Source: an uncultured Burkholderiales bacterium (GTDB lineage Bacteria; Pseudomonadota; Gammaproteobacteria; Burkholderiales; Burkholderiaceae_C). From it: a stretch of 38,926 nt of DNA. How positions within the stretch are numbered: position 1 is the first letter of the stretch; the number at the start of each line of letters is the position of its first letter. This document shows, piece by piece, positions 18,243 through 38,926 of the stretch. Position numbers and translations under genes: made by a program. The notes beneath the pieces are model-generated. The model saw only the letters and a program-made list of their open reading frames with translations, searched no databases and was not told where the DNA came from. Location of the stretch: the NCBI GenBank assembly GCA_903933115.1, contig CAIZIT010000023.1:1-38926 (forward strand). Direction: 5' to 3'.

Positions 18243-18247
18243 ACACC

Positions 18248-19372
18248 ATGAGTTTGCCCTTTCACCTTGTCATTGAAGATGACGTCTTCACCCGCGTCCT
18301 CGACGTGGTTTTGAACCCTGAGTGCTCAAAGGAGAGGAAGTTGGCATTTGCCGACTTCTTTGCCCATGACGCACCTGATTTTCTACAATGGGCTCAAGCG
18401 CAGAAAAAGAACACCTCGCACCTTCAAAACTGCAGCGTTCGCTTTGTGCATTCCCAAGAGGAGTTGCGCGAACAGCTCCCCCACGCTCACGCGGTGATCG
18501 TGGAGTCCCTCTCCCTTGGTCGAGAGGAGATCGCGCAAGCCCCTCAACTGAAGGCGGTTCAAAAGTACGGCTTTTTGACCAAGAACATCGATCTCCTCGC
18601 CTGCGCCGAGCGCCACATCAAGGTGCTCAAGGTTCGAAGAAGGGCCAATATTGCCTGTGCTGAGCAAGCCATGATGATGATTCTCGCCTTGGCCAAAAGG
18701 CTCTGTGAGGTCAACAAACAAACCTCCACCCAAAGGCTTCAAAATGCGGGCTTTCAACCCCAAGCCTTTGATCGCAGGCACACCCCCAGCTCCAATTGGG
18801 CCCGCATCCCCAACATTCAAACCCTTTACGGCAAAAGCATGGGGATCATTGGGATGGGTGAAATTGGTCAAGAGATTGCAAAGAGAGCCCTGTCCTTTGA
18901 GATGAATGTGCTCTACACGCAAAGAACGCCCTTGGATCCAGAGAGCGAAAAAACCCTCAGTGCCCACTACCTCAGCCTAGAGGACTTGCTCGCCAAGAGC
19001 GACTGGGTCGTGGTCCAATTGCCAGCAACCCCTCAAACGCATCTGTTGCTGAACCATCAAAACTTGGTGCATCTTAAAAAGGGGGCTTGCATCATCAACG
19101 TCTCAAGAGCGCAGTGCATGGAGCGCCAAGCGATCATCGATCTCCTCCAAAGTGGACACATGGGGGGTTTTGCCTTGGACACACTTTGGAGTGAGCCGGG
19201 ATCGGACGATGATGAGTTGCTCCATTTTCCCAATGTGATCTTGACCCCGCACTTGGCGGGCAGTCCCAGGTTGAATGGTCTTCTTGACTTTGAGGAAATG
19301 ATTCATGACTTGGACCACGCCCTCAGCCCTCAAGCCTCAGCCCTCAACCCCTTCTCCATGAGTTCGACATGA
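18248..19372 (+). CDS. D-isomer-specific 2-hydroxyacid dehydrogenase
   Basis: A 374-aa NAD(P)-dependent dehydrogenase. The Rossmann motif GMGEIG covers residues 202-207. The catalytic set is visible: Arg in INVSRAQ, Glu in LWSEPG and His in TPHLAGS. The family reduces 2-oxo acids to D-2-hydroxy acids or the reverse; the substrate is not known. The N-terminal part is somewhat longer than usual. The C-terminus carries a 14-bp DNA duplication (19321-19348) that encodes a Pro/Ser/Ala-rich tail. The stop codon overlaps the ATG of the following Bug gene (ATGA at 19369-19372), which indicates translational coupling. Confidence 0.92.
   Translation: MSLPFHLVIEDDVFTRVLDVVLNPECSKERKLAFADFFAHDAPDFLQWAQAQKKNTSHLQNCSVRFVHSQEELREQLPHAHAVIVESLSLGREEIAQAPQLKAVQKYGFLTKNIDLLACAERHIKVLKVRRRANIACAEQAMMMILALAKRLCEVNKQTSTQRLQNAGFQPQAFDRRHTPSSNWARIPNIQTLYGKSMGIIGMGEIGQEIAKRALSFEMNVLYTQRTPLDPESEKTLSAHYLSLEDLLAKSDWVVVQLPATPQTHLLLNHQNLVHLKKGACIINVSRAQCMERQAIIDLLQSGHMGGFALDTLWSEPGSDDDELLHFPNVILTPHLAGSPRLNGLLDFEEMIHDLDHALSPQASALNPFSMSST
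19321..19348 (+). repeat. 14-bp tandem duplication at the 3' end of the dehydrogenase gene
   Basis: CCTCAGCCCTCAAG is followed directly by CCTCAGCCCTCAAC. The duplication extends the C-terminal tail of the 2-hydroxyacid dehydrogenase beyond its last conserved motif. Confidence 0.75.
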
Positions 19373-20373
19373 AGCTGAAACCAACGCTTCCTAGGCGTTC
19401 ATCCTATGGCTTGCAAGCCCTCACTTTGGTGGCGCTTTGGGGTCTCGCTTTGGGCGTGTCCCAAGCTCAAGAGAGCTGGCCCCAGCATCCCATTAAACTC
19501 GTCGTGCCCTTTCAAGCCGGCAGCTCGACCGATGTGGCGGCCCGCGTCATGGCCAGCAAGATGTCCAGTGCGCTCAATCAAGTGATGGTGATTGAGAACA
19601 AAATCGGTGCAAGTGGCTTCATTGGGGCCGAGTTTGTCTCTAAAGCCAGCAGCGATGGTTATACCGTTTTGTGGGGTACGACCTCCACTCAAATCATTGG
19701 ACCCATCATCAACGGCTCAACGGCCTATGACCCCGTGAAGGATTTCACACCGATTGGTCTCATTGCTTTTTCGCCCTATCTCTTGGTGAGCTCAGGAAAA
19801 AGCTCCATCAAGAGCTTGAAGGACTTGATCGAGTTGGCCAAAAGCAAGCCTCGGGAGGTGACGTATGCATCGGCAGGCAACACCAGTGTCGGCAACTTGT
19901 CTGCGCAACTGCTGTCACAAACTGCAAAAGTAAGCCTCACGCACATTCCCTACAAAAGCTCTGCCCAATCGGTGACCGACACCATGACGGGTATCGTGAA
20001 CATGCAGTTCTCCTCCATTGCACCGGTTTTGACCCATCTGAAAACCGGTTCATTGAAGGCTTTGGCCATCACGTCCAAAAACAGAATTTCTATTTTTCCG
20101 GACGTGCCCACCGTTGCCGAGTCGGGCTACCCAGGCTATGAAGCGTTGCTCTGGATGGGACTCTTCACCCCTCAAGGGGTGAACAATTCGATTGTGGACA
20201 AGCTGACCCTTGCGCTCAAAAGCACGTTGAACGATCCTGAGGTACAAAAAACCTTGCAAGCTCAAGGCTTGCAACCCAGCAACATCTACAAAGAGGAGTT
20301 GGGTGCATTTGTCAAATCAGAGCTCAACAAGTGGTCACAGGTGATCAAGTCGGCTGGCATTCAAGGGGATTGA
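19369..20373 (+). CDS. Bug/TctC-family periplasmic solute-binding protein (second copy)
   Basis: A 334-aa receptor with a signal peptide (LTLVALWGLALGVSQAQ, cleavage near residue 33-35). The Bug signature WPQHPIKLVVPFQAGSSTD follows, then VIENKIGASG and THIPYKSSAQSVTD. The start codon overlaps the stop of the 2-hydroxyacid dehydrogenase gene, so its synthesis is coupled to that enzyme. Having two receptors in one operon suggests either two related ligands or uptake of a substrate and a by-product. The TctAB permease is not encoded here. An 11-bp hairpin lies 46 bp downstream. Confidence 0.95.
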   Translation: MKLKPTLPRRSSYGLQALTLVALWGLALGVSQAQESWPQHPIKLVVPFQAGSSTDVAARVMASKMSSALNQVMVIENKIGASGFIGAEFVSKASSDGYTVLWGTTSTQIIGPIINGSTAYDPVKDFTPIGLIAFSPYLLVSSGKSSIKSLKDLIELAKSKPREVTYASAGNTSVGNLSAQLLSQTAKVSLTHIPYKSSAQSVTDTMTGIVNMQFSSIAPVLTHLKTGSLKALAITSKNRISIFPDVPTVAESGYPGYEALLWMGLFTPQGVNNSIVDKLTLALKSTLNDPEVQKTLQAQGLQPSNIYKEELGAFVKSELNKWSQVIKSAGIQGD

Positions 20374-25466: not shown

Positions 25467-25505
25467 TTGGGGTATCTGCCAATCAAAGTCAAACGGATCA
25501 ACTGT

Positions 25506-25559
25506 GCTGTACTTGCTGTACTTGCTGTACTTGCTGTACTTGCTGTACTTGCTGTACTT
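25506..25559. repeat. 9-bp tandem repeat ahead of the lipoprotein gene
   Basis: Six perfect copies of GCTGTACTT run head to tail, ending in a degenerate seventh. They lie 40-93 bp upstream of the lipoprotein ATG on its strand, where a promoter or leader would be. The number of copies could vary by slippage and change promoter spacing. Confidence 0.9.
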
Positions 25560-25670
25560 GCTGATCTGCTGTATGCGCCCATGAAGGTTGGCCCCCATCA
25601 CCCCCCCCCTGCAGAATGCGCTCGCAGCAAGGGGAGTTGAAGGACACTCAGCTGACCATGGAAGAGAAAA

Positions 25671-26636: not shown

Positions 26637-27126
26637 TTTTACTTTCTAACGGATTGAATGCGTACACCAACTCCGTATTGTATTGAACTGGAAGGGACAT
26701 AAAAGAAATTAAATCATCACTCTCAAGAATTGATTTAAGCATCATGCACATGTCCAAGCTCCCATTGGGCTCCAAGTTGGACTAAAACGAAGGTGGTCAG
26801 TGAGCTCTCATACGCCTAGGCTTTACTGACTTAAAAGTCCCAGCAAGAACAAAATGAAAAAGGTTAATTGGGAAGTGAAGATGAGCTTTTTTACCTAAAC
26901 TTTCTTGATCCTTTCACTTACATTTGTCGTTCTCCTCTAAATCATTTTTTAATAATCAAGCATTCAAGGAGGTCTCCGCGATTGCATCACAAGTCCATTT
27001 CTGAGCGTAAACACCGCCCTCTCAAAAGGCTCAAAAACCCCCTCAAAACAGCAATTTGGGTTAAAATTCAAGAACTGTTTCAAACAAGAAACATTGTCTC
27101 ACCATAGAAACACTCAAGGGGCCATC
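26637..27126. other. 490-bp divergent regulatory gap without genes
   Basis: No convincing coding sequence lies here. The gap must hold promoters for the third Bug gene and for the rightward ring-cleavage operon. Visible structure: a possible hairpin with GTCCAA (26752-26757) and TTGGAC (26777-26782) arms and an inner CCC/GGG pair; GACTT-AA-AAGTC (26828-26839); and an inverted repeat close to the VOC gene, listed separately. The ORF-like stretch at 26868-27107 has no ribosome binding site and an unconvincing composition. Confidence 0.6.
27076..27093. promoter_or_regulatory. Inverted repeat ahead of the ring-cleavage operon (possible IclR-type operator)
   Basis: TGTTTC (27076-27081) and GAAACA (27088-27093) form a perfect 6-6-6 inverted repeat 33 bp before the VOC dioxygenase start. 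IclR-family operators are short palindromes of this size, and an IclR gene lies in the facing operon. The link between the two is inference. Confidence 0.35.
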
Positions 27127-28092
27127 ATGCATTTGCAAGGCATTGAAAAAGTAACGTTAACTGCTTTGGATTTGGAGACTGCAAGGAAGTTCTATACCGA
27201 TTGGGGACTCACATTGACGCATCAAAGTGATGCCCACTTGCTCTTTGAAACTTTGAACGGTTGCCAGGTGAGCGTTCATGAAAGTCTCGACCCCCATTTG
27301 CCTGCAGGCATTGAAAAAGACCCGACCCTTAGAGAGATCACCTGGTGCGTGAAAGACGCACAAACACTGGAACATTTCGCCTCCAAGCTCTCCCACCTCG
27401 AGAGCTTTGAAAAACACCCTGACACCGTCAAGTGCAAAGACCCCTCAGGGCTCAGCATTGCCATCACCGTGACCCAGAAAAGGGACCTGAAGCTCCAAAG
27501 TGCGATCACGAATTCTTGGGACCAACGCCAGCGCATCAACCAGCCCAGTCCCATTTACGAGCGCGCAACGCCCGTGGAAGTGGGACACGTGGTTCTCTTT
27601 GTTGCCGATTTGGCGCAATGCTCTTCCTTTTACCAAGAATTTTTAGGCTTCACCGTCTCCGACACTTATCCCAATCGAGGGCATTTTCTGAGGTGCACCC
27701 CCAATGGGGGTCACCATGATTTGTTCATGTTGGAGCTTCCAGAAAAAAGAGTGGGACTCAATCACATTGCTTTCACGGTCAGAGATTTGCATGAGGTTTT
27801 TGGGGGTGGGATGCACATGTCAAGGTGCGGCTGGAAAACCGAATTGGGTCCCGGCAAGCACCCCGTTTCTTCGGCCATTTTTTGGTACTTTCACGCACCA
27901 ACTGGAGCGCTCGTGGAGTATTATGCCGATGAAGATGAGTTAACCCCCGAGTGGGTGGCCAGAGAGATCACCCCTGGACCCACCATGTTTGCAGAGTGGG
28001 CCATCAAGGGCGGCATTGATGGCCATACACGTCGACAAATTGAGGCACAAGCCCCCACGGGTCAATTCATGACCGATATGCCTAAAAAATAA
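27127..28092 (+). CDS. Two-domain VOC-family extradiol-type dioxygenase
   Basis: A 321-aa protein with two vicinal-oxygen-chelate modules, the layout of 2,3-dihydroxybiphenyl and catechol 2,3-dioxygenases. The N-terminal module (about 1-120) lacks the metal-ligand His (KVTLTALDL). The C-terminal module keeps all three iron ligands: His154 in VGHVVLF, His213 in LNHIAF and Glu264 in VEYYAD. It should cleave a catechol-like ring next to the two hydroxyls; the substrate is unknown. The frame is open from 27094, but the ATG at 27127 follows AAGGGG and is preferred. It leads an operon with a 75-aa protein, a Rieske oxygenase and its reductase. Confidence 0.88.
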   Translation: MHLQGIEKVTLTALDLETARKFYTDWGLTLTHQSDAHLLFETLNGCQVSVHESLDPHLPAGIEKDPTLREITWCVKDAQTLEHFASKLSHLESFEKHPDTVKCKDPSGLSIAITVTQKRDLKLQSAITNSWDQRQRINQPSPIYERATPVEVGHVVLFVADLAQCSSFYQEFLGFTVSDTYPNRGHFLRCTPNGGHHDLFMLELPEKRVGLNHIAFTVRDLHEVFGGGMHMSRCGWKTELGPGKHPVSSAIFWYFHAPTGALVEYYADEDELTPEWVAREITPGPTMFAEWAIKGGIDGHTRRQIEAQAPTGQFMTDMPKK

Positions 28093-28141
28093 ACGTCAGA
28101 AGTTTGATTTTTAAAAAAGACTCAATAAGGAACAGCTCATC

Positions 28142-28369
28142 ATGAACAGTCCCAACTCGCTTTATCACGTTGCTCTTCAAACGCGAGAGCACGAACCCAC
28201 CAGTTACGAAAATCTCTTGGGCGACTCCATCGAGCGCGCCTTCGCTCAAGGTTTTCACGACTTGGAGAGCTTGACCCAGTACCTCAACTCAGCAGGCCCA
28301 TCCTGCGCCGATGGCAAGCCTTGGACACCTGAGTCCTTTCAGCACGAAATGGCCAAATTGGGTCGATGA
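28142..28369 (+). CDS. Small protein of Rieske-oxygenase operons (recombinase-like HTH type)
   Basis: A 75-aa protein ending in the helical segment KPWTPESFQHEMAKLGR, preceded by TQYLNSAG. It resembles the small proteins named recombinase-like helix-turn-helix domain proteins that sit beside ring-hydroxylating oxygenase genes. The function is not established; regulation or complex assembly are both possible. AAGGA before the ATG supports the start. Its stop overlaps the Rieske gene ATG (ATGA at 28366-28369), so the two proteins are made together, which hints at a physical link. Confidence 0.75.
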   Translation: MNSPNSLYHVALQTREHEPTSYENLLGDSIERAFAQGFHDLESLTQYLNSAGPSCADGKPWTPESFQHEMAKLGR

Positions 28370-29433
28370 ACTTTTGGAGCAATCTCATGAATCAACACAC
28401 CCCACTGCACCTCCTACACCAAGCCAGTCCTGACCCCACCGAGAGCGTTTTGGCTCGAGGCCTTGAGAACTACTGGTATGCGCTTTGCCCTTCTAGCTTT
28501 GTCAAAGAGTCGCCCATTTCTCTGAGAAGACTGGGTTACAAATTGGCCCTTTGGCGTGATGCCAATGGACAAGTCAAGGCACTTGAAGACCATTGCCCAC
28601 ATCGGGGCGCACCACTCTCAATGGGGGTCGTTTTGGGCGATAAATTGGCCTGTGCGTACCATGGCATTGAAGTACGTGCAGACGGTGTGGTCACCAAAGT
28701 GCCTGGTAGTCCAGGCTGCAAACTCGAGGGCTCAAAGGCGACCCGAAGCTTTCCCATTATGGAGCGCAATGGGGTGATCTTTGCCTACAACGCCACAGAC
28801 CCCCATCTTGAAGTGCCTCCACCTTTGAACCTGCCCCCAGAGTTGACCTCTGAGGAGTGGTCATCATTTTTATGCTACACCGAGTGGGGCTGCGACTACA
28901 GGTACGTCATGGACAATGTGATGGACCCCATGCATGGCGCCTACCTCCACAAACAATCCCACACCATGGCCGATGGAGACATCACCGCCGAGTTCCAAAT
29001 CAGAGACACTGAGACCGGATTCTCTTTTGAGAAAAAAGGCCAACGCAATGTGAACTTTGACTGGACGGAGTGGATCGATACAGGCATTCACCTGATGCGC
29101 CTAGAAATCCCTTACCCCAAAACAGGTGGCCCAGGCGGCAGCTTCACCATCATTGGCGCTTACGTGCCCATCTCTCGTCAAGCCAGCGGGATCTTCTTTT
29201 GGAGATGCCGCAAAGTCTCCGGCTGGCAACGCGACACATGGCGCTTCCTGTACAAGAACCGCCTCGAAGCGCGCCACTGGCACGTCCTCGAACAAGACCG
29301 AGTGGCCATGGAGCAGTTTGAGCCCGACGCCAACTTACGCGAACACTTGTACCAACACGACATGGGAATTGTTAGAATGAGGCGAATACTCAAAAATTTG
29401 GCCAATGAGCAACTGGACAAGTTGAAGGCCTGA
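28366..29433 (+). CDS. Rieske-type ring-hydroxylating oxygenase, large subunit
   Basis: A 355-aa oxygenase. The Rieske [2Fe-2S] motif is C77-x-H79 ... C96-x2-H99. The mononuclear iron site shows His190-x4-His195 within DPMHGAYLH, with the bridging Asp183 before it. The size and the partner reductase fit the VanA/phthalate-oxygenase type, which needs no beta subunit. It should hydroxylate or O-demethylate an aromatic acid. Two ATGs are possible, 28366 (overlapping the small gene) and 28387; the overlap favours the first. The reductase gene follows 176 bp later. The facing operon supplies hydrolase, cupin and dehydrogenase functions that could act on its products. Confidence 0.93.
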   Translation: MNFWSNLMNQHTPLHLLHQASPDPTESVLARGLENYWYALCPSSFVKESPISLRRLGYKLALWRDANGQVKALEDHCPHRGAPLSMGVVLGDKLACAYHGIEVRADGVVTKVPGSPGCKLEGSKATRSFPIMERNGVIFAYNATDPHLEVPPPLNLPPELTSEEWSSFLCYTEWGCDYRYVMDNVMDPMHGAYLHKQSHTMADGDITAEFQIRDTETGFSFEKKGQRNVNFDWTEWIDTGIHLMRLEIPYPKTGGPGGSFTIIGAYVPISRQASGIFFWRCRKVSGWQRDTWRFLYKNRLEARHWHVLEQDRVAMEQFEPDANLREHLYQHDMGIVRMRRILKNLANEQLDKLKA

Positions 29434-29609
29434 GTCACCGAACCCAGTCTTCTTTGAGTGACAAGTCTCCTTCCATCAAGGGTCTTGAAAGAGGTGTGCG
29501 TTGAATGCGAATGGGGACCAACGTCCTTCATGGCGATGGAACGGACTTCTTCTTTCAAAGACCCTCTCCTTTTCATTTTCCTCTCTCATTACCTTACTCT
29601 TGCACAGCC

Positions 29610-30590
29610 ATGCTAGCTTTGGTCAAAACCATCCGATTTGAAACAGAAGACGTCATCAGCATTGAACTCTGTCCCAATCCTGCGAGCGCCACCACCCCGT
29701 TCTCAGACTTCAAGGCCTTCAGTGCTGGTGACCACATCGATCTTCAATTGCCCAATGGACTCACCAAGAGCTACTCCTTGATGAACAACCCCCAAGAGCG
29801 TGATCGCTACGTTCTTGGCGTCTTGAAGGACCCCAAGTCCCGTGGGGGCTCCAAGTGGCTTCACGAGCACTTGAAGGTGGGCATGCGCTTAGAGATCACT
29901 GAGCCGAGCAACAACTTTCCCTTGCACGAGAATTTTCAACACACCATTTTGGTTGCTGGTGGCATTGGCGTCACGCCCCTGTTGGCCATGGCCCATCGAC
30001 TCAAAGCCATGAACGCGTCCTTTGAGTTCATTTATGCGGCGAAATCCAAAGCCCTGGGCCCCTTCCAAGATGTGGTGACCCAATTTGGAGCTCCAGTTCA
30101 TTGGCACTTTGACGACGAGGTGGGTTCTCCTCCCCATTTGGAGCAGTTGATCCATGATCGCCTTCAAAAGAGTGGCCTTCAAGGAGAAGCTTGCCAACTC
30201 TACGCCTGTGGCCCAGAGCCCATGCTCGATGCATTCTTAAAAGCGTGCACCCATTTGTCGCTCCCCCACGCCAACATTGAACGATTCAAAGCCCCTGAAG
30301 TCCAAGTCAGCTCAGAGCTCAAAAAGGCCTACACCCTCACGCTCAAGAAGTCCAACAAGACCATTGAAGTCACACCAGACATGACGCTTTTGCAAGCGCT
30401 CAGAATTCACCACATCGAAGTGGACACCAGTTGCGAAGAAGGCGTCTGTGGGGCATGCGAGACCCGCGTGTTGTCGGGTGAGCCCGATCACTTGGACTAT
30501 GTGCTGAGTGACCAAGAGAGAGAAAAAAACAAGGTGATGATGGTCTGCATTTCGGGCTGCAAGAGCGACCACTTGGAGCTTGATCTTTGA
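29610..30590 (+). CDS. PDR/VanB-type oxygenase reductase
   Basis: A 326-aa electron-transfer protein for the Rieske oxygenase. The flavin domain holds KSYSLMN (about residues 50-56), the NAD domain AGGIGVTPLLAM, and the C-terminal plant-type ferredoxin has C-x4-C-x2-C in CEEGVCGAC, with the fourth Cys in VCISGC. This order (flavin, NAD, [2Fe-2S]) is that of phthalate dioxygenase reductase. The chosen ATG matches the family N-terminus (LVKTIRFETEDV) but has no Shine-Dalgarno and follows a pyrimidine-rich stretch. The in-frame ATG at 29505 has AGAGG ahead of it and would add 35 residues of unusual composition, so the start is uncertain. A 7-bp tandem repeat begins at the last codons. Confidence 0.92.
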   Translation: MLALVKTIRFETEDVISIELCPNPASATTPFSDFKAFSAGDHIDLQLPNGLTKSYSLMNNPQERDRYVLGVLKDPKSRGGSKWLHEHLKVGMRLEITEPSNNFPLHENFQHTILVAGGIGVTPLLAMAHRLKAMNASFEFIYAAKSKALGPFQDVVTQFGAPVHWHFDDEVGSPPHLEQLIHDRLQKSGLQGEACQLYACGPEPMLDAFLKACTHLSLPHANIERFKAPEVQVSSELKKAYTLTLKKSNKTIEVTPDMTLLQALRIHHIEVDTSCEEGVCGACETRVLSGEPDHLDYVLSDQEREKNKVMMVCISGCKSDHLELDL

Positions 30591-30619
30591 TCTTTGATCT
30601 TTGATCTTTGATCTTTGAT
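30581..30619. repeat. 7-bp tandem repeat spanning the reductase stop codon
   Basis: Five copies of TGATCTT plus a partial TGAT run from the last codons of the reductase gene through its TGA stop (30588-30590) into the convergent gap. Because 7 is not a multiple of 3, the units shift frame, but the stop sits in the second unit, so protein length is stable. Confidence 0.85.
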
Positions 30620-30712
30620 GCTGCCATGGCCATGCGTTTTAAAGAGGCCCATCCAACGATCCCGCGATCAACGGCTTTCACTGCATGTGACTTCCATTGA
30701 GCGAAGTTCTCC

Positions 30713-31519
30713 TTAACTGCCCAAAAACGAGCCCCCGTCGAGCAAAAGATTTTGCCCATTGATGTAGCCCGAGTGCACGCCACATAAAAACGCACACGCA
30801 GCCCCAAGCTCGCTCGGTTGGCCAAATCGTTGAGCCGGGTGTTTGGACAAACGCTCTTTGATCACTTGATCATAGGGCAAACCTCTTACCTGGGCTTGGT
30901 GGGTGAAATTCGAGCGCAGCCGATCGGTCTCAAAGGTACCAGGCAACAAATTGTTGATGGTGACACCCTTGGCCACAGTTTGCCTGGCCAAACCTGCCAC
31001 AAAGCCCGTGAGTCCTGCTCTCGCTCCGTTCGACAAGCCAAGCGCATCCAAGGGCGACTTCACCGCACTTGAAGTGATGTTGACGATTCGACCAAAGCCT
31101 TTGTCCATCATCTGATCCACATAGCTTTTGATCAACTCAATGGGGCTGAGCATGTTGGCATCCAATGCAGCCAGCCAATCCGCTCTTTGCCAGTTTCTGA
31201 AGTCGCCCGAGGGCGGCCCCCCCGCGTTCGTGACCAAGATGTCCACCTCGGGGTGATGCGCCTTGATTTGTGCCCTGCCCTCAGCAGTCGTCACATCGAC
31301 ACACTCCAGATGAACACCCAAGGCATGGACACCGCTCTTTTGAGCCCACATGTTTTGCTGCTCACGCAAGGCATCACACGCTGCTTTCAAAGGCCCCAGA
31401 GTTCTTGCCGCAATCACCACCTCCACCCCCTCGAGAACCAGGGCCTGAGCGCATGCAAACCCCAGGCCTTGAGAGGCCCCACAAACCAGTGCTTTTTTTC
31501 CGTAAAGACCCAAGTCCAT
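30713..31519 (-). CDS. Atypical short-chain dehydrogenase/reductase
   Basis: A 268-aa SDR-fold protein with the NAD(P) motif GASQGLG (residues 14-20) and TNAGGPPSG (97-105). After the catalytic Ser (Ser150/151 in ITSS) the usual Y-x3-K is replaced by LGLSNGARAG: Ser163 stands where Tyr is expected and Arg167 where Lys is expected. I recall a subfamily with the NxGGPPPG and LSNxxRAG pattern that shares this change, often annotated as 3-oxoacyl-ACP reductase. Whether it is catalytic is uncertain. Its ATG overlaps the stop codon of the Bug gene by one base, so it is the last gene of the minus-strand operon. Confidence 0.88.
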   Translation of the reverse strand: MDLGLYGKKALVCGASQGLGFACAQALVLEGVEVVIAARTLGPLKAACDALREQQNMWAQKSGVHALGVHLECVDVTTAEGRAQIKAHHPEVDILVTNAGGPPSGDFRNWQRADWLAALDANMLSPIELIKSYVDQMMDKGFGRIVNITSSAVKSPLDALGLSNGARAGLTGFVAGLARQTVAKGVTINNLLPGTFETDRLRSNFTHQAQVRGLPYDQVIKERLSKHPAQRFGQPSELGAACAFLCGVHSGYINGQNLLLDGGSFLGS

Positions 31520-32547
31520 TATTCAGCCTCGATGTGTTTGGCGCGAACGATCTTTGCCCAAGTCTGCGTCTCTTGAGCAATGTAGGAGGCGAATTCCTCG
31601 GGCTTTTGCAGCACTTCCGTCAAGCCTTGCGATTTCAAAAGTTCAAGCACTTTGGGTTGGGTAAAAATGCTCTGTGTGTCCTTGGCCAATTGATTGACGG
31701 TCTCAGTTGGCGTTCCCGCTGGGGCCAGCAAACCATACCAAGACGTCACCACCACCCCTTTGACCCCCTGCTCTTGCAGGGTGGGCAAATCAGGTGCCAC
31801 ACCCGAATGCACAGCATCCGTGATGCCCAGGGCCACCAATTTACCGCTCCTGATGTGAGGCAAAACGGCTGGGAGGTTGCTGAACATCAAAGGCACGTTG
31901 CCTCCCAACACATCGTTCAAAGCAGGAGCCGTTCCCTTGTAGGGCACATGGAGGATATCCACACCCGCTTGCTGCTTGAACAACTCACCCGCCAAGTGCA
32001 AACCACTGCCAATGCCTGGTGAAGCATAAGCCAAGGTGTTGGGCTTGGCTTTGGCCAGCTCGATCAACTCTTTGACGGTTTTGATCTGTGAGAGTTGACC
32101 CGCAACAAGGACATTGGGCGCTTTGGCGATCATGGTGATGGGCACAAAATCACGGTCGATTTGAAATGGAAAATTCTTCATCAACGAGGGATTGATCGTC
32201 AAATTGCCTGCTGGAATGACGAGCAAGGTGTGTCCGTCGGGCTTGGCTTTCTTGACCTTGTCCATGCCGAGATTGCCCTGCGCGCCTGGCAAGTTCTCCA
32301 CCATGGCACTTTGTGTGTAAAGCTTTTGAAGGCCCTCAGCCAATAAGCGTGAGAGCACATCCACGGGCCCACCAGGGGGAAATGGCGAGACAACGGTGAA
32401 GCGCTCTGCACCCAAGGACTTGTCTGCGCTCAAGGCGTTGGCATTGCCGCTTTGAGCAAGCGTGGCCCCTGCGCCCCCAAAGCAAAGTGCCAAGACACCG
32501 AGCTTCAAGACTCCCCACACCATGGTTTTACGAATACATCTGCTCAT
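31519..32547 (-). CDS. Bug/TctC-family periplasmic solute-binding protein (fourth copy)
   Basis: A 342-aa receptor. The signal peptide (LKLGVLALCFGGAGATLAQS) is followed by FTVVSPFPPGGPVDVLSR, VENLPGAQGN and HVPYKGTAPALNDVLGG. The frame is open to 32601, but the ATG at 32547 is chosen because GGAGG lies 9 nt before it and the signal peptide then begins properly. It lies between the aspartate-dehydrogenase-like gene (143-bp gap with a dyad) and the atypical SDR gene (1-bp overlap), inside the minus-strand catabolic operon. It likely binds the substrate of that pathway. An ABC permease gene lies at the far end of the same operon, but Bug proteins normally work with TctAB rather than ABC systems. 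Confidence 0.94.
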   Translation of the reverse strand: MSRCIRKTMVWGVLKLGVLALCFGGAGATLAQSGNANALSADKSLGAERFTVVSPFPPGGPVDVLSRLLAEGLQKLYTQSAMVENLPGAQGNLGMDKVKKAKPDGHTLLVIPAGNLTINPSLMKNFPFQIDRDFVPITMIAKAPNVLVAGQLSQIKTVKELIELAKAKPNTLAYASPGIGSGLHLAGELFKQQAGVDILHVPYKGTAPALNDVLGGNVPLMFSNLPAVLPHIRSGKLVALGITDAVHSGVAPDLPTLQEQGVKGVVVTSWYGLLAPAGTPTETVNQLAKDTQSIFTQPKVLELLKSQGLTEVLQKPEEFASYIAQETQTWAKIVRAKHIEAE

Positions 32548-32623
32548 TGCCCACATCCTCCATTTGTGCTCACCGCTTGTCAAAAAAAGTCTTCCCATCA
32601 AGACTTGCTGGAGGCCCCAGTCG

Positions 32624-32639
32624 CTTGGTGCTCACCAAG
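32624..32639. promoter_or_regulatory. Dyad upstream of the fourth Bug gene
   Basis: CTTGGTG-CT-CACCAAG is a perfect 7-2-7 dyad in the 143-bp gap between the aspartate-dehydrogenase-like and Bug genes. It lies 77 bp before the Bug start codon. It could be an operator for an internal promoter or an RNA hairpin that lowers read-through. Which one cannot be decided from the sequence. Confidence 0.4.
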
Positions 32640-32690
32640 TAAAAAGATTGATGCCTTGACGCCTTGACAGAGCAAAGCGCCCTGGAGTCC

Positions 32691-33500
32691 TCAAATCGTC
32701 ACATGCGCCACCTGGTTGTTCAAAAACCGCAAAGCACTCAAAACCGTCAACGCAGAGGTCTTGGGATTGCTGGCCAAGGGTCTTCCCTTCATCGTGATGT
32801 GCATCTCACCAAACGCACCATACGCTTCAATCTCGTGAATATTTTCACTCACCTGAGGATCCGCCATCAAGCACACCTGAGTTGCATCCAGACCCAGTCC
32901 AGCCAAGGAAAGGGTCGCGGCAACGTTGGCATTTTTGGGGTAAAGCCTTGCGGCTTGTCTTGCCGTGTCCTCTAAGAGGACTGTGGCTTGACTCAAATGC
33001 GCCAAGTCCACCAGCGCCTCGGCCGGTGTCCCCTTCCACCCCAAGGGGGGCTTGCGGGAGGTGTAACGCACGGCGCTCAAACCCGCCAGCTTGGCCGCCG
33101 CCAAGGCATCCACTCCACCAATGGCACCACTGAGCAAATGCAACTGCGCTTGACCCCTTCGAGAAGCCGCCTCCAAGTCCTCCAAAAGACCGTGCTCAGA
33201 AAGCGCACCGATCGACAATATTGCACACGACTGCCCTCTTTGAAGGGCTGGCATGACGTGCTCTCGCAAGGCGCCATGTGCGGCACACTCGAGCACCAAA
33301 GTGGTCTCCAAAGGAACCACCGAACACACCACAACAGCATGCTGGGGATTCAGGGTCTTGATTTTTTCTTCGACGTCTTTGACCCTCTCAGGCCTCACCA
33401 CGATGTGAGAAATTTGCAAATCCTCTCTTGCTTGGAGAGCCTCAAAAATCGATTGCCCAATTGCACCAAATCCAAGCAATGTGAAGGTTTTTAGAGTCAA
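32691..33500 (-). CDS. Aspartate dehydrogenase-like NAD(P)-dependent enzyme
   Basis: A 269-aa protein of the L-aspartate dehydrogenase (NadX) family. The Rossmann motif is LLGFGAIGQS (Gly10, Gly12, Gly15). Family blocks follow: SGAIGGVDALAAAKLAG, NANVAATLSLAGLG, ENIHEIEAYGAFGE (with the likely catalytic His) and NPKTSALTVLS. Family members oxidise L-aspartate to iminoaspartate or run the reverse amination. In this catabolic operon another amino or imino acid substrate is possible. The start is TTG at 33500, with AAGAGG six nt before it; no ATG gives a complete Rossmann fold. That ribosome binding site overlaps the stop codon of the ThDP enzyme gene, which points to translational coupling. Confidence 0.88.
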   Translation of the reverse strand: MTLKTFTLLGFGAIGQSIFEALQAREDLQISHIVVRPERVKDVEEKIKTLNPQHAVVVCSVVPLETTLVLECAAHGALREHVMPALQRGQSCAILSIGALSEHGLLEDLEAASRRGQAQLHLLSGAIGGVDALAAAKLAGLSAVRYTSRKPPLGWKGTPAEALVDLAHLSQATVLLEDTARQAARLYPKNANVAATLSLAGLGLDATQVCLMADPQVSENIHEIEAYGAFGEMHITMKGRPLASNPKTSALTVLSALRFLNNQVAHVTI

Positions 33501-33510
33501 TTGAAACCTC

Positions 33511-35220
33511 TTAGTCTTTTTTCAAAATAGGACCCGCGAACTTGGTCTTAAAAGGCCCCCAAGCCGTCATGTCCACTTCGACCATCACGGGCACATGGCT
33601 CTCTTGGGTTTTGGCCACCGCTTGCTTTAACACCTGCAACACGTCTTGGGGCTGCTTCAGGTGAAAGAACCCCAAACCCAGACTTTGACAAAGGGTCTCA
33701 AAATGCGGGTTATGCAAATCCACATAACAGTGCCTCGAGCCATAAATGTCGTCTTGGATATTTCGTATCACGCCGTAGCTCTTGTCGTTCATCAACAAGA
33801 TCACCATCTGAGCGCGCTCCTGGACCGCGCAGGCGAGCTCCCCCATATTGAGCACCAAGCCCCCGTCTCCACTCAACAAAAGTGTGGTGCCCCTTTGGCC
33901 CAAGACGGCGTTGGCCACACTCACGCCAATGGCCATGGGTAAACCTTGCCCGATTCCACCCCCAAGAGCATGGACTCCAGCTCTCGAGTGATGGAGCACT
34001 GGGGCGCGATTGCCCCACATGGTGTTGGACAAAGTGATGTCCCTGACCCACCACAAATCATCCTTGGCCAGTTGTTCAACGGCTTGCTGCAAGGCATCGT
34101 AAGGCCCGATCGCATCATCGACTTGCGCCTTGGCCAAGGTTTTGGCTTGGACGAGGTCTGCAATGAGACCAGGGTCGATGTGGCCCGCACGATCTCGCTC
34201 AAGGCGATCGGCCAAGGCATGCAAAGACAACAAGGCGTCGCCCTGCACAAAGAAGTCGCTGCTGTAGCCTTTGTTTTGCGCCAAAGCGTCCACATCAATG
34301 CGGTAAAGGGCTTTGGGGAACTTCAATTGGTACTTGAGCGTTTCGTTGCTCCTCAGTCTTGAACCCACCACCAATAAAGCATCGCAGGTCTGGTAAAAAG
34401 CCTCCACCGGTTTTTGCAAGTTGTAGGAACCAAGGGTGCTGGGGTGGCTTTCATCAAGGATTCCCCGTCCTTGCACGGAGGTGACCACACCAAAACCCAT
34501 TTGAACAAAGCGCTCAACGGCCTGGCGAGCATGACGTGCGCCCCCACCCAGCCAGAGCATCGGGCGCTTGGCGAGTTTGAGTCGCTCGGAGAGCTCATCC
34601 AACTTTTGTGCATCTGGGGCCATGGGTGCAATGCTGGGAGGCGACAAATCGTGCGGCAAATCGAGGAGCGAGGCTTGAACATCAATCGGGATCTCCACAC
34701 TCACCGGTCCCCTGGGCGCGGTCAAAGCCAAGCGATAAGCCTCTTGCAAAACCGATAGGGCACTTTGTGCATTTCTGATGCGAAAGGCCGCTTTGCCAAC
34801 CGCGCTGAGCATGGCCAACTGCGCTGGCGCTTCATGGATGTAGCCCAAATCTCGATCGACAAACTCAGACTCAATTTGACCCGTCAAATGAAGGATCGGC
34901 GTGCCTGCCGTTGTGGCCTCAATGAGCGCACCGGCAGCATTGCCTGCTCCCGTGCCCGTGCTCGTGACAAAAACCCCCAGGCCACCTGAGGCTCTGGCGT
35001 AAGCATCGGCCATGTTGCACGCACCCGCCTCACCTCTTGAGGAGACGAAGCGCAGTTGTTGGCGCCGGTGAAAGGCATCCAAGATGGGCATGTTGTGAAT
35101 GGAGATCACGCCAAAAGCAGCACCGACATGGGCTTCTTCGAGAAAGCGAGCAATCAACTCGCCCACCGTGATTTGAGGACGCTGTGTATTCAGGTGCTGG
35201 GTGGAAGTTTGATGGTTCAT
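33511..35220 (-). CDS. Thiamine-diphosphate-dependent enzyme (acetolactate synthase-like)
   Basis: A 569-aa enzyme of the pyruvate-oxidase / acetolactate-synthase family. The catalytic Glu64 lies in SSRGEAGACNMA. The central domain (about 190-330) follows, and the C-terminal ThDP/Mg motif is SGDGGLVLNMGELACAV with NDKSYG. The N-terminal active-site loop reads FGVISIHNMPILDA rather than the acetolactate-synthase FGYPGG type, so branched-chain amino acid synthesis is unlikely. No regulatory small subunit is present. It could decarboxylate or ligate a 2-oxo acid made by the pathway. The gene starts 12 bp after the IclR gene ends and is coupled to the aspartate-dehydrogenase-like gene. Confidence 0.9.
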   Translation of the reverse strand: MNHQTSTQHLNTQRPQITVGELIARFLEEAHVGAAFGVISIHNMPILDAFHRRQQLRFVSSRGEAGACNMADAYARASGGLGVFVTSTGTGAGNAAGALIEATTAGTPILHLTGQIESEFVDRDLGYIHEAPAQLAMLSAVGKAAFRIRNAQSALSVLQEAYRLALTAPRGPVSVEIPIDVQASLLDLPHDLSPPSIAPMAPDAQKLDELSERLKLAKRPMLWLGGGARHARQAVERFVQMGFGVVTSVQGRGILDESHPSTLGSYNLQKPVEAFYQTCDALLVVGSRLRSNETLKYQLKFPKALYRIDVDALAQNKGYSSDFFVQGDALLSLHALADRLERDRAGHIDPGLIADLVQAKTLAKAQVDDAIGPYDALQQAVEQLAKDDLWWVRDITLSNTMWGNRAPVLHHSRAGVHALGGGIGQGLPMAIGVSVANAVLGQRGTTLLLSGDGGLVLNMGELACAVQERAQMVILLMNDKSYGVIRNIQDDIYGSRHCYVDLHNPHFETLCQSLGLGFFHLKQPQDVLQVLKQAVAKTQESHVPVMVEVDMTAWGPFKTKFAGPILKKD

Positions 35221-35232
35221 GGTCTCAATCGT

Positions 35233-36072
35233 TTAGGAATGCACTCGGCTCATTCGGTCCGTCAACTCTTTTGCACACGACTGAACCAATTGAATCAATT
35301 TGGACATTTCAAGATCGGGCATTTTGAGATGGGGAATGGTGATGCTCAAGGCCGCAATCACATGACCGTCATCGTCAAAAACGGGGGCTGCAAGAGTAGA
35401 GATGCCACTCTCAAAGCCGCCCTGACTCAAGCTGTAGCCCTGAGCCCTTTCTTGGTCGATCATGCGTTTGAGCTCTTCAATGTTTTTGGGCGTTTTGGCC
35501 GTAAAGCTCTCAAGCGTGGGCTCGGGGTAGAGAAGCCGTAAGGCCTCCAAACTCAAGTCCCCAAGCAACACCCGTCCAAGGACCGTTGCATGAGCGGGCA
35601 AGCGAGCACCCACTTGAATCGAGTGAAAGGACGCATTGACACCGGGTGCTTTGTGAACGAACACCACCTCCCGCGCGTCTCTCACAACCAAATGGGCTGC
35701 AAAGCCACTCTCATCCCTCAAGCGCTGAACCACCGATTTGCCATGCTCGGTGAGCTCGAGAGAGGCCAAGTACTCAAAGCCCAGTCTCAAGATACCGAGG
35801 GCCAACTTGTAGCCCGCGGACTCACCCACTCGCTCCACAAAACCCTCATGCTCCAAGGTCTGAAGCATTCTAAAAACAGAGGCTCTTGGCAAACCCAATC
35901 GCCTAGAGAGCTCGGCACCGGTGAGCACTTTGTCTTGGGCGTTGAATTGCTTTAATAGCTGTAAGCCCCTCAAGAGCGCAGGAACAATGTAGCGCTCCTC
36001 TGCAGCAGGATGAGACTGCGGCTGGGTGGCCACGTGAGGGTTGAGGGCGCTTTGCCCTTTTGTGCCTTTCAT
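35233..36072 (-). CDS. IclR-family transcriptional regulator
   Basis: A 279-aa regulator. The winged helix-turn-helix lies near residues 30-95 (GAELSRRLGLPRASVFRMLQTLEHEGFVERVG). The IclR effector domain follows, with GVNASFHSIQVGARLPAHATVLGRVLL and the late GGFESGISTLAAPVFD motif. IclR proteins often control aromatic-acid pathways such as protocatechuate or phthalate use. Here the gene sits in the middle of the operon, overlapping the alpha/beta hydrolase gene by 4 bp, so it is probably made together with the enzymes it controls. The candidate target site near 27076 lies ahead of the facing operon. Confidence 0.95.
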   Translation of the reverse strand: MKGTKGQSALNPHVATQPQSHPAAEERYIVPALLRGLQLLKQFNAQDKVLTGAELSRRLGLPRASVFRMLQTLEHEGFVERVGESAGYKLALGILRLGFEYLASLELTEHGKSVVQRLRDESGFAAHLVVRDAREVVFVHKAPGVNASFHSIQVGARLPAHATVLGRVLLGDLSLEALRLLYPEPTLESFTAKTPKNIEELKRMIDQERAQGYSLSQGGFESGISTLAAPVFDDDGHVIAALSITIPHLKMPDLEMSKLIQLVQSCAKELTDRMSRVHS

Positions 36073-36881
36073 GAGCCCTCATCCAGTCCCAAGAGTTCAC
36101 TCACAACTTCTGGGCTCTCGATGGCACACGCGTGTCCAACAGGCCCCAAATCCAACAAGGTCTGGGACAAGGCATCTGCCACGACTTGGCAATCTGCAGG
36201 GGTCGTGATGCTGTCCAAATGACCGCTGGCGATTTGAACTGGACAAGTGGGCTTGGGATGGGTGAGCTCCCAACACAAGTCTGCATGAGCGAGCATTTGC
36301 GCCGCCTGGGTGTATCCCTTGGGGTCGACTTGGGACATGATCTCTTGAACCCTCAATCGCATCGACTCTGGCGCTTGGGGGGAGAGCATGGCGTGAGCCC
36401 TGAGTTTGGCCATCCCCATGGGGCCGTGCTCAATCAAGTTGGCCAAGCGATCTTTGAGCTTCTTTTCTCTGACCTCTTTGCTCGATGAACCATAACCCCT
36501 CGCCGGCGAGAGCAAAATCAAGCGCTGGACCCGAGAGGCGTTGAGGCGAGTTGCACTGGCCGCCATCAAGCAGCCCAATGAATGACCCACCAAAGTGACG
36601 GGATTTTTAACACCCATGAAATCCAACCATTGCCAAACCCGCTGGCCGTACTCTTCGGCCTTGGGCTCGGGGCTGGTGAGCTTGGTGCTCGAGCCGTATC
36701 CCGGTGCATTCCAAGCCAAAACTTGGTGAGTCTTGGAATGCTTGACCAACTCCAACTGCGCAGACCAACTGAGCATGCCTGAGCCAATGCCGTGGAGCAA
36801 GACATGGGTGATTTGGGGGGCCTTGCCCGAGGAAAGATACTGAATGCTTTGTCCCTCAGAATGAATGATTCTTGGATTCAT
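36069..36881 (-). CDS. Alpha/beta hydrolase
   Basis: A 270-aa serine hydrolase. The oxyanion region is LLHGIGSGMLSW (about residues 28-39), the nucleophile is Ser in GHSLG, the acid is Asp in SGHLDSITTP, and the base is His in VGHACAIESPE near the C-terminus. Size and motifs fit meta-cleavage-product hydrolases and related lactonases or esterases of aromatic catabolism, which would suit the ring-cleaving VOC enzyme of the facing operon. A hydrolase for an ester or enol-lactone is also possible. GAGGCGTAGAG before the ATG supports the start. It lies 15 bp behind the cupin gene and overlaps the IclR gene. Confidence 0.9.
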   Translation of the reverse strand: MNPRIIHSEGQSIQYLSSGKAPQITHVLLHGIGSGMLSWSAQLELVKHSKTHQVLAWNAPGYGSSTKLTSPEPKAEEYGQRVWQWLDFMGVKNPVTLVGHSLGCLMAASATRLNASRVQRLILLSPARGYGSSSKEVREKKLKDRLANLIEHGPMGMAKLRAHAMLSPQAPESMRLRVQEIMSQVDPKGYTQAAQMLAHADLCWELTHPKPTCPVQIASGHLDSITTPADCQVVADALSQTLLDLGPVGHACAIESPEVVSELLGLDEGS

Positions 36882-36896
36882 CTCTACGCCTCGGTT

Positions 36897-37505
36897 TTAA
36901 CGCTTGATCTTGGCCAAGGGGGAGTCTGGTGGGTATGTCGGGGTGATGGGTTTGGGAGAACCCAGCATCACGCACATGAGGGCATCTTCGTCCCCAATGT
37001 TTTGCTCCTCTCTGTACACACCAGGTGGCACAGAGATCAAATCACGCTCACCAAGGATCGCCTCAAAGCGCTCCCCATCTTTTTCACAAACCACTTTCAT
37101 CGAGCCTCTGATCACAAAGAAAATCTCCTCCACATCGTAGTGAATGTGAGAAGGACCAATGTTGCCAGCGGGAATGACCATCGTGGAAAATGTGAAGTGA
37201 GCGGAAGGGACCGTGTTTTGGTCTTTGGCAACGCCCGTGCCGCCTGTGCCCACGTAGCGCATTTGAGCGCGTCTGTACTTGGGGTCAAAATCCGCTTGAA
37301 ACTTCAATGCGTCCCAGTCGTATTGCCTGCTCGAGCGTGTGGCGATGCGGCTTTGCATCCACTGGGCAAAGGATTGGCCAGGATCTCGCAACATCGAGCG
37401 CTGAATGCTGGACTCCTCGGGAATTCGCGCATCCATCAAACCCACTTCATTAAAGACAGGTTGGTTGGCTGCGGCTTGATGGATATCGATGGGGGAAGAA
37501 GACAT
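36897..37505 (-). CDS. Cupin-domain protein
   Basis: A 202-aa single-cupin protein. The first cupin motif is SHIHYDVEEIFFVIRG, which supplies two His and a Glu as metal ligands. The second motif (VPPGVYREEQNIG) lacks the usual His, so the metal site differs from the classical four-ligand form. A 90-residue N-terminal extension precedes the barrel. Cupins in such clusters act as dioxygenases, isomerases or small-molecule sensors; the role here is unknown. AAAGG ahead of the ATG supports the start. It follows the SDR gene after an 80-bp gap and leads into the hydrolase gene. Confidence 0.88.
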   Translation of the reverse strand: MSSSPIDIHQAAANQPVFNEVGLMDARIPEESSIQRSMLRDPGQSFAQWMQSRIATRSSRQYDWDALKFQADFDPKYRRAQMRYVGTGGTGVAKDQNTVPSAHFTFSTMVIPAGNIGPSHIHYDVEEIFFVIRGSMKVVCEKDGERFEAILGERDLISVPPGVYREEQNIGDEDALMCVMLGSPKPITPTYPPDSPLAKIKR

Positions 37506-37584
37506 GGTGTAAACCTTTAAAACAAAAGCGCGGCAACTCCAAAGCAGTCACCAACGCCATTTCAGAAAAAAAACCCACAAGCAT

Positions 37585-38355
37585 TCAATGCATGACAAAG
37601 CCACCATTGACTGCTAAAACTTGACCCGTGATGTAAGCACTGCCCTTGCTCAACAAAAACAAAACCGCTGCATTGATATCAGCAGGCATTTGAGCCGCTT
37701 TGATGGCGCGTCCTTGTTCATAGTAATCGTGTCGGTGTTGTGGCACATATTCAGTGGCCTTGACCAATGTCAAACCAGGTGCAATGGCATTCACGGTCAC
37801 CCCATGTTCACCAAGCTCTCGAGCAAGGGACTTGGTCATGGAGATCACTGCGCCCTTGCTGGCCACGTAGGCCATCAAATTGGGGGCCCCCCAAAGGGCG
37901 GTGTCGCTGGCGATGTTGACCACTCGCCCCGAGCGAGAAGCCATCAAATGAGGCCTGGCCGCCACGGTCGTAAGCCAAGTGCCGCGCACATTGACTTGCA
38001 TCACCCGGTCCCAAGTCTCAATGCTCAAGTCTTGGTGGGCAACGCCTCCCGAATTGGTGATGGCCGCATTGTTGACCAAGCCATCTATCCCCCCCATGAG
38101 AGACGCCGCCTCTTGGACGCCCTGCGCTATGCTCAAAGGGTCCGCGTTGTTCATCTCCACAAAATGCGCTCGCTCGCCCAAGGACTTTGCCAAGGCTTGC
38201 CCCTCTTCAACAAGAATATCCGTCAAGACCACGCTTGCCCCACTGGCGATCAACGCCTGGGCAAAACTCTCCCCCAGGCCTCTGGCGGCGCCTGTGACCA
38301 AGACCTTTCGACCCGAGAGAGTGATCTCTGGGGTCGTGTTGGGAATTGTGCTCAT
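37585..38355 (-). CDS. Classical short-chain dehydrogenase/reductase
   Basis: A 256-aa SDR with an intact active site: TGAARGLG (residues 21-28), NNAAITNSG, Ser in VNIASDTALWG, and Tyr/Lys in YVASKGA. Length and the closing ITGQVLAVNGGFVMH are typical of 3-oxoacyl-ACP-reductase-like or cis-diol/alcohol dehydrogenases. In this operon it could oxidise a hydroxylated intermediate such as a dihydrodiol. GAGAGGG before the ATG supports the start, and the ATG overlaps the stop codon of the ABC permease gene (38352-38355), so the two are coupled. Unlike the SDR at the other end of the operon, this one keeps all catalytic residues. Confidence 0.94.
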   Translation of the reverse strand: MSTIPNTTPEITLSGRKVLVTGAARGLGESFAQALIASGASVVLTDILVEEGQALAKSLGERAHFVEMNNADPLSIAQGVQEAASLMGGIDGLVNNAAITNSGGVAHQDLSIETWDRVMQVNVRGTWLTTVAARPHLMASRSGRVVNIASDTALWGAPNLMAYVASKGAVISMTKSLARELGEHGVTVNAIAPGLTLVKATEYVPQHRHDYYEQGRAIKAAQMPADINAAVLFLLSKGSAYITGQVLAVNGGFVMH

Positions 38356-38926
38356 GAAAATGCCCTCTCAGAGCTTGGCAAATAGTGCAGCACCCGCTTC
38401 TCAGCCCAAACGACCCCGTAGTAGGCCAGCACACCAATCACGGTGAGCGCACCAATGACCACAAAGACAGCAGCCGTGTTGCCCTGTCCTTCAAAGTACA
38501 CCAACAAATAGCCAAGCCCCATGTTGCCACCCACCAGCTCACCCACCACCACACCAATGACGGCCAAAGTGCTGGCAATTCTCAGACCCGAAAACAAGGC
38601 GGGCAAGGTGCTGGGGAACTGCACATTGGCAAAGAGTTGCAAGGGTGTGCCTGAGAAAGACCTGGCCAAATTCATCAAGTCTTGGTCCATGGTTCTCATA
38701 GAGGACAAGACGTTGATCAAGACAGGGAAAAACACGATCAACACCGCCACCAGTATTTTGGGATACATGGTGTAGCCCAACCACATCACAAAAAGAGGTG
38801 CAAAGGCAACTTTGGGGGCAATTTGAAGGGCCAACAAATAGGGCGAAAAGACAGCTTCCAATTGAGGAGAACTGCCCAGCAAATAGCCCATCAAAGCACC
38901 TAAAAGAGAACCGAGCACAAAGCCCA
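38352..38926 (-). CDS. ABC transporter permease, SsuC/TauC-like (partial at the window edge)
   Basis: The C-terminal 191 residues or so of a membrane permease whose 5' part lies beyond the window. About four to five transmembrane helices are visible. The EAA-type loop that contacts the ATPase reads LARSFSGTPLQLFANVQFPSTLPALFSGLRIA-like in composition (roughly 100-130 residues before the end). The sequence LALQIAPKVAFAPLFVMWLG is characteristic of the SsuC/TauC/nitrate-type family that imports sulfonates, taurine, aromatic acids or pyrimidines. The ATPase and binding protein should lie upstream, outside the window. It is the first visible gene of the minus-strand catabolic operon and probably imports its substrate. 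Confidence 0.92.
   Translation of the reverse strand, partial: GFVLGSLLGALMGYLLGSSPQLEAVFSPYLLALQIAPKVAFAPLFVMWLGYTMYPKILVAVLIVFFPVLINVLSSMRTMDQDLMNLARSFSGTPLQLFANVQFPSTLPALFSGLRIASTLAVIGVVVGELVGGNMGLGYLLVYFEGQGNTAAVFVVIGALTVIGVLAYYGVVWAEKRVLHYLPSSERAFS

Follow-up and report, generated by a model that had tools for sequence, protein, structure and literature searches.

Two facing operons of an uncultured Burkholderiales bacterium (GenBank assembly GCA_903933115.1) raise the question of which compound is degraded by a gene set that joins a Rieske oxygenase and an extradiol-type dioxygenase to an aspartate dehydrogenase (AspDH). The operons lie in a 38,926-nt stretch of DNA (the window), which is an entire contig (CAIZIT010000023.1; hereafter C23); the genome assembly comprises 119 contigs and 2.82 Mb. 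They converge: the forward operon (27127-30590) encodes, in this order, a VOC dioxygenase, a 75-aa HTH_62 protein, a Rieske oxygenase, and a VanB-type reductase, and the reverse operon (38926-30713) encodes a truncated ATP-binding cassette (ABC) permease, a short-chain dehydrogenase/reductase (SDR1), a cupin, an alpha/beta hydrolase, an IclR regulator, a thiamine diphosphate (ThDP)-dependent enzyme, AspDH, a Bug receptor, and a second SDR (SDR2). All of these are open frames that match their families (Table 1). We propose that the cluster serves the uptake and degradation of kynurenate or of a closely related 4-hydroxyquinoline-2-carboxylate, a reading to which we assign a probability of about 60%. 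From the gene content, conservation, catalytic residues, and a shared palindrome described below, we infer the substrate and the assignment of each step.

The gene set is a real conserved cluster that is common to many unrelated bacteria, including other classes and a second phylum. The ThDP protein, used as a query, returned 166 pattern matches and 138 relatives, from which the best 80 loci were kept; genes were counted in the 50 Burkholderiales loci of at least 21 kb (long loci), all chosen for the ThDP gene. The genes for AspDH, cupin, alpha/beta hydrolase, SDR1, and IclR were each present in all 50, as was one of two alternatives, SDR2 or SDR3. An aldehyde dehydrogenase (ALDH; 46 loci), the Rieske oxygenase (46), the VOC enzyme (45), HTH_62 (40), and the VanB-type reductase (28) followed, together with ferredoxin (13), ferredoxin reductase (7), and a RidA-like gene (15). 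For transport, 23 loci have an ABC transporter, 23 a major facilitator superfamily (MFS) transporter, and 29 a Bug protein. The initial annotation had described facing operons that form a coherent degradation set and had proposed a neighborhood comparison across Burkholderiales. The comparison recovered the core set in 50/50 of the long loci with AspDH beside the ThDP gene in each, a palindrome is shared before both operons in this genome, and the gene families hold as described, with the convergent layout and the overlooked HTH_62 gene as additions.

Annotated records of Klebsiella, Caballeronia, Paracoccus, Novosphingobium, Nitratireductor, and Pseudosulfitobacter carry the set in varied order. 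A similar set is found in an Acinetobacter record (IclR not in the stretch) and a Vibrio record (Rieske gene not in the stretch), and a translated search of a Streptomyces plasmid recovered all enzyme families, several at only 30-32% identity, and no IclR. Among plasmid-collection records, the ThDP gene occurs in 28 and the cupin gene in 28, with 27 records common to both. This is more than chance, because the set recurs in many species, in other classes, and in a second phylum. The distribution is patchy: the ThDP family was found in one of 274 genomes of a class-wide sample, namely the present one, and in 37 of 399 genomes of a family-wide sample, and five listed genomes of the same genus are without it. 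A 44% match on a Variovorax SRS16 plasmid (H20) stands in a different gene context.

Two kinds of small proteins recur in these loci. In most relatives, an HTH_62 ('recombinase-like HTH') gene adjoins the Rieske gene, as if it were part of the oxygenase system (Table 1; also L110:4716-5045 and L114:17038-17358). A conserved gene of approximately 112 aa without a Pfam match (L045:14588-14926; homologs in approximately 20 loci) accompanies the HTH_62, Rieske, and RidA-like genes in clusters of the Comamonadaceae and of the Pusillimonas type.

Kynurenate, which derives from tryptophan, acts as a signal molecule in animals and plants; the biochemistry of its breakdown by bacteria was established in the 1960s. 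In this quinoline route, 7,8-dihydroxykynurenate is converted to 5-(3-carboxy-3-oxopropenyl)-4,6-dihydroxypicolinate and then to the oxopropyl, formylethyl, and carboxyethyl forms (KEGG tryptophan map; Hayaishi-school papers). The cluster resembles the route in its series of reaction types: dioxygenation, dihydrodiol dehydrogenation, extradiol cleavage, side-chain reduction, decarboxylation, aldehyde oxidation, and pyridine ring opening. It differs in that the route, to our knowledge, is known as enzyme activities, not genes, and the roles of AspDH, the cupin, and the hydrolase fall outside the classical scheme. The enzymes EC 1.14.99.2, 1.3.1.18, and 1.13.11.10 are not known to have sequences. 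At the level of enzyme class, all steps of the route are encoded in the present genome: the Rieske oxygenase, reductase, SDR1, VOC enzyme, SDR2, ThDP enzyme, cupin, and hydrolase in the window, and ALDH on another contig (C11).

The active sites are conserved to at least 97% in alignments of 31-86 relatives per family. The Rieske oxygenase and its reductase would make kynurenate 7,8-dihydrodiol; the oxygenase keeps C77, H79, C96, and H99 and the iron site H190, H195, and D311 (355-aa frame numbering), which places it in the Rieske family. SDR1, in which the Tyr and Lys of the usual motif are found in 75/75 sequences, would oxidize the dihydrodiol to 7,8-dihydroxykynurenate. The VOC enzyme would then cleave the 8,8a bond of this intermediate. 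Its 2-His-1-Glu metal site (H154, H213, and E264), the mark of an extradiol enzyme, is conserved in at least 97% of 61 sequences; none of the named equivalog models scored over its cut-off. SDR2 would reduce the C=C bond in the 3-carboxy-3-oxopropenyl side chain. At the Tyr/Lys positions, SDR2 has Ser and Arg (33/33) and SDR3 has Thr and Arg (41/41). These two families are 25% identical and mutually exclusive in the 50 long loci (L018 was listed with both, and at a stricter threshold has SDR2 only). Both families fill one slot and lack the usual proton donor, which suggests one unusual reduction. The SDR Tyr is also replaced in 2,4-dienoyl-CoA reductases. The fifth solved relative of SDR3 is a peroxisomal trans-2-enoyl-CoA reductase, and most others are carbonyl reductases, as are the named solved relatives of SDR2.

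The ThDP enzyme, in which E64 and the GDG..N motif are conserved and which additionally matches a 2-oxo acid decarboxylase model (256 bits), would decarboxylate the resulting 2-oxo acid, and ALDH would oxidize the aldehyde to 5-(2-carboxyethyl)-4,6-dihydroxypicolinate. The pair fits 2-oxo acid decarboxylation followed by aldehyde oxidation. In most relatives, the ALDH gene follows the AspDH gene; it is absent from the window, and a 65% match is found on C11 of the same genome. The part of C11 that holds this ortholog (7961-15609) also encodes two further Rieske-type oxygenases, two Bug proteins, and a VanB-type reductase, and makes up a second aromatic-degradation region. Among nine genomes with ALDH-less loci, three encode, outside the locus, a protein that matches the one of C11 at 76-77%.

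For the final steps, the cupin and the alpha/beta hydrolase would open the pyridine ring, first at C4-C5 of a cyclic beta-dicarbonyl form and then at the amide (C6-N), to yield 2-oxoglutarate and iminosuccinate. C2-C3-C4 plus the carboxyl would form the iminosuccinate half; the other half would be 2-oxoglutarate if the opening is oxygenolytic (cupin) and glutarate if it is hydrolytic. AspDH would reduce iminosuccinate to L-aspartate, i.e., the AspDH reaction in reverse. This ring opening would account for the AspDH and RidA-like genes. The cupin has an invariant HxHx3E motif (H120, H122, and E126/E127 conserved) and a weak profile match to quercetinase (1.6e-6), and the hydrolase profile is nearest to the meta-cleavage C-C hydrolases HsaD/BphD among solved structures. 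AspDH keeps the conserved blocks of its family when aligned to 2dc1, with H222 conserved, as expected for an L-aspartate dehydrogenase. RidA-like genes, which belong to an imine-hydrolyzing family, were found in 22/125 loci, in many of these beside the Rieske gene or SDR2. We favor the oxygenolytic version, which gives the cupin a role and agrees with glutamate formation: according to an excerpt of a review citing a 1961 tracer paper, glutamate, alanine, and organic acids are formed from kynurenate by pseudomonads (PMC11354673). Glutarate was considered first as the end product, but a CoA-transferase and an acyl-CoA dehydrogenase encoded beside the Pseudosulfitobacter cluster scored far below the glutarate-model cut-offs and better to other families, and their support for glutarate was dropped. 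The ring-opening chemistry is our own proposal and the most speculative part of the scheme, and we hold it to be less likely than a kynurenate-type substrate.

These assignments revise part of the initial annotation, which could not match the set to a described pathway and suggested that the ThDP enzyme and AspDH together may process an amino- or imino-acid product, for example from a nitrogen-containing aromatic. The guess of a nitrogen-containing aromatic agrees in kind with what is now the best fit. The lack of a match does not stand, given that the enzyme classes appear to follow the classical kynurenate route step by step. Regarding the pair, an imino acid may indeed be the substrate of AspDH (as iminosuccinate), but the pairing is not needed, and the ThDP enzyme goes better with ALDH in a sequence from 2-oxo acid to aldehyde to acid.

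Expression of the two operons may be coordinated. The upstream regions of close relatives share a palindrome, GWTTC-N6-GAAWC, which was counted in 86 of 115 loci (1,617,511 bases, of which 188,046 lie outside genes called by codon scoring). It occurs 45 times, in 34 of the 86 loci. Of these copies, 43 are classed as intergenic, and 40 of the 43 are located at most 90 bp from the called start of a cluster gene, namely, one for an ABC ATPase, VOC enzyme, ferredoxin, SDR1, Bug protein, porin, cupin, or Rieske oxygenase. Other spacings from 2 to 11 gave 0-7 hits. Among 60 half-site permutations, two that overlap the motif gave 32 each, the next gave 18, 14, and 10, and the median was 3. In the present genome the pattern is found six times, compared with 42 for the control of the same pattern read backwards. 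The window has a second copy at 5216, inside another gene; the chance expectation in the window is 0.33, and two copies were found in 3/100 shuffles.

The reverse operon appears to continue on another contig of the same genome, C53, whose end encodes permease residues 1-73 after genes for an ABC ATPase and a binding protein; the permease is split 73 + 190 residues between the ends of C53 and C23, so that the two contigs are apparently neighbors (the ends do not overlap). A palindrome copy on C53, with the ABC ATPase gene 30 bp on, is identical in all 16 bases to the one that precedes the ABC operon in loci L008 and L009. Because C53 apparently adjoins C23, both facing operons carry the palindrome in this genome, as they do in L008, L009, L034, and L037. 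This shared candidate operator is what an IclR-regulated unit would have, and the IclR protein probably binds GWTTC-N6-GAAWC and controls both operons through it. Upstream of the ABC operon on C53 (approximately 1038-5045), there are one Bug gene and two MmgE/PrpD genes, as in L008-L010. Scans for promoters and terminators gave matches no more frequent than in shuffles.

Several observations weigh against kynurenate as the substrate or against parts of the proposed scheme. Tryptophan dioxygenase (PF03301) was not found in this genome, and a translated search of 126 loci found none, with kynurenine formamidase, the aminotransferase, and quinaldate hydroxylase not searched for; the recurrent neighbors, annotated as chosen examples of clusters found in at least three loci, showed no kynurenine-pathway gene, and glutarate-type neighbor genes were not confirmed. 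The ALDH ortholog was not found in six of the nine genomes with ALDH-less loci, i.e., the four nearest relatives (L008-L011) plus L045 and L046. No RidA-like gene is in the window, and the sole match in this genome is weak (30%). The best solved relative of the Rieske protein is dicamba O-demethylase. The structure model of the cupin is poor (pLDDT 64), and that of the hydrolase is good (pLDDT 96) but its fold matches many esterases and hydrolases, and neither was used for assigning function. The exact palindrome is absent from 52/86 loci. Many of the ALDH-less genomes, being metagenome bins, may be incomplete, or a different ALDH may take the step. In carrier genomes, PF03301 scored over the cut-off in 34/41, outside the loci; in the present genome, which has no tryptophan dioxygenase, the substrate would be imported, as the ABC and Bug genes allow.

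A less likely alternative is that the cluster serves another nitrogen-containing aromatic, such as an aminophenolic acid or a quinoline or pyridine with other substituents, that releases iminosuccinate or a related imino acid. The AspDH and RidA-like genes would point to an imine product in this case as well, and the three kinds of transporters and several electron-transfer partners suggest varied substrates. Some clusters also have FAD_binding_3 monooxygenases (L024:15107-16285, L024:20343-21488, and L009:18928-20154), one of which, as a speculation, could form the 7,8-dihydroxy intermediate of the kynurenate route by hydroxylating xanthurenate. However, the order of reduction, 2-oxo acid decarboxylation, and aldehyde oxidation is documented for kynurenate, and we could draw no other common substrate for which every part has a use.

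A nitrogen-free aromatic acid, methoxylated or phenolic, is considerably less probable. In such a pathway, a Rieske demethylase or dioxygenase and extradiol cleavage would lead into an unusual lower route, and AspDH would assimilate nitrogen by acting on oxaloacetate; the dicamba demethylase among the Rieske relatives and the homoprotocatechuate and catechol 2,3-dioxygenases among the VOC relatives are in line with it. The cluster also shares with classical meta-cleavage of biphenyl, catechol, or homoprotocatechuate the Rieske oxygenase, a dihydrodiol-type SDR, a VOC extradiol enzyme, and an HsaD/BphD-like hydrolase. Nevertheless, AspDH, found in every long locus, and the RidA-like genes have no place in a nitrogen-free pathway. 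As the initial annotation stated for the standard lower route, no hydratase, aldolase, or acetaldehyde dehydrogenase family was found in the twelve proteins scanned (ten of them in a further scan), and the cluster has instead the ThDP enzyme, ALDH, cupin, and AspDH. Finally, that two unrelated operons merely lie side by side is very improbable: the modules are apart in some genomes and their order changes, but the palindrome precedes both operons here and in the four loci named above, cluster genes are intermixed along a single strand in Caballeronia, Acinetobacter, Klebsiella, and Streptomyces, and of 13 genomes in which the Rieske protein was sought, 12 have loci without it in the stretch (L027 has one) and 10 of these 12 carry an ortholog at 73-77% elsewhere.

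Table 1. Features of the two convergent operons in the window, with proposed functions.
Feature	Position	Strand	Remarks
Palindrome GTTTCAAACAAGAAAC	27077..27092	.	Candidate IclR operator, 34 bp 5' of VOC gene; conserved in L008-L010
VOC extradiol-type dioxygenase	27127..28092	+	Glyoxalase 1.2e-16; proposed 7,8-dihydroxykynurenate 8,8a-dioxygenase
HTH_62 small protein, 75 aa	28142..28369	+	98.8 bits; overlooked in the initial annotation
Rieske oxygenase	28387..29433	+	Start set by ortholog length; proposed kynurenate 7,8-dioxygenase
VanB/PDR-type reductase, Rieske oxygenase partner	29610..30590	+	Start set by ortholog length
SDR2	30713..31519	-	Ser/Arg replaces Tyr/Lys motif; proposed C=C reductase
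Bug/TctC solute receptor	31519..32601	-	Family match 9.4e-69
AspDH (aspartate dehydrogenase)	32691..33500	-	NF009827, 346 bits vs. cut-off 226; proposed iminosuccinate reductase
ThDP-dependent enzyme, PRK07064 family	33511..35220	-	NF005470, 788 bits vs. cut-off 495; proposed 2-oxo acid decarboxylase
IclR-family regulator	35233..36072	-	Family profile match
Alpha/beta hydrolase	36069..36881	-	S101, D223, H250 conserved
Cupin, HxHx3E motif	36897..37505	-	Proposed pyridine-ring-opening oxygenase
SDR1, Ser-Tyr-Lys	37585..38355	-	Proposed dihydrodiol dehydrogenase
ABC permease, C-terminal 190 aa	38352..38924	-	Cut by contig end; rest on contig C53

Outside these genes, the window has three perfect or near-perfect tandem repeats of approximately six copies each, at 25505-25563 (9 bp), 30580-30619 (7 bp), and 13462-13527 (10 bp). 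The stop codon of the reductase gene falls within the 7-bp array, which lies between the convergent operons. Judged from the frames, 14838-20373 may hold a further catabolic group with Bug receptors and amidohydrolase-like, short carboxymuconolactone-decarboxylase-like, and 2-hydroxyacid dehydrogenase-like proteins.

Counterparts of the cluster may be present in well-studied species. We take PA3504-PA3514 of Pseudomonas aeruginosa PAO1 to be such a counterpart. SDR3 matches the solved P. aeruginosa protein Q9HYA2 (386 bits), which is presumably PA3507. This match and the listing of PA3505 under nicotinate metabolism in an excerpt of a published paper (PMC9732424) support the assumed correspondence. 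In a passage of a 2025 paper, PA3498-PA3503 and PA3504-PA3514 are called uncharacterized operons (PMC12771364). In Acinetobacter baumannii, A1S_0945-0958 looks like the same cluster by the gene order of locus L111 and is described, in the source excerpts, in expression tables only: A1S_0956-0958 (annotated as aspartate dehydrogenase, betaine-aldehyde dehydrogenase, and acetolactate synthase) rise with mucin (PMC5757984), and A1S_0945, 0946, and 0956 are listed as expressed in biofilm only (PMC3758355), with no pathway given in either excerpt.

Going by excerpts of its description, the nearest described relative in style is the riboflavin/lumichrome (lum) pathway, which likewise handles a nitrogen heterocycle and has a thiamin-dependent decarboxylase, a Rieske dioxygenase, and an extradiol dioxygenase (PMC12746152). 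It differs in having P450 and xanthine-oxidase-type steps and a decarboxylase (LumK/LumL) that acts on a heterocycle, and AspDH is not mentioned in the abstract; the likeness is one of description only. Among the matches listed in a search of open-access literature, whose scope excludes subscription journals and preprints, the excerpts gave no assignment of a gene cluster for kynurenate breakdown and no pathway assignment for this enzyme set.

Tentatively, and at somewhat less than even odds, the locus may represent the gene set of the orphan kynurenate pathway of the 1960s, with an unrecognized ending in which a cupin and a hydrolase yield 2-oxoglutarate and iminosuccinate for AspDH to convert to aspartate, and with a C=C step performed by two unrelated SDR families that lack the Tyr-x3-Lys motif. 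If true, this reading would give assignments to approximately a dozen gene families together, across Proteobacteria and Streptomyces, and would provide a function for uncharacterized loci of P. aeruginosa, A. baumannii, and Klebsiella. It would also explain why AspDH travels with aromatic-degradation genes.

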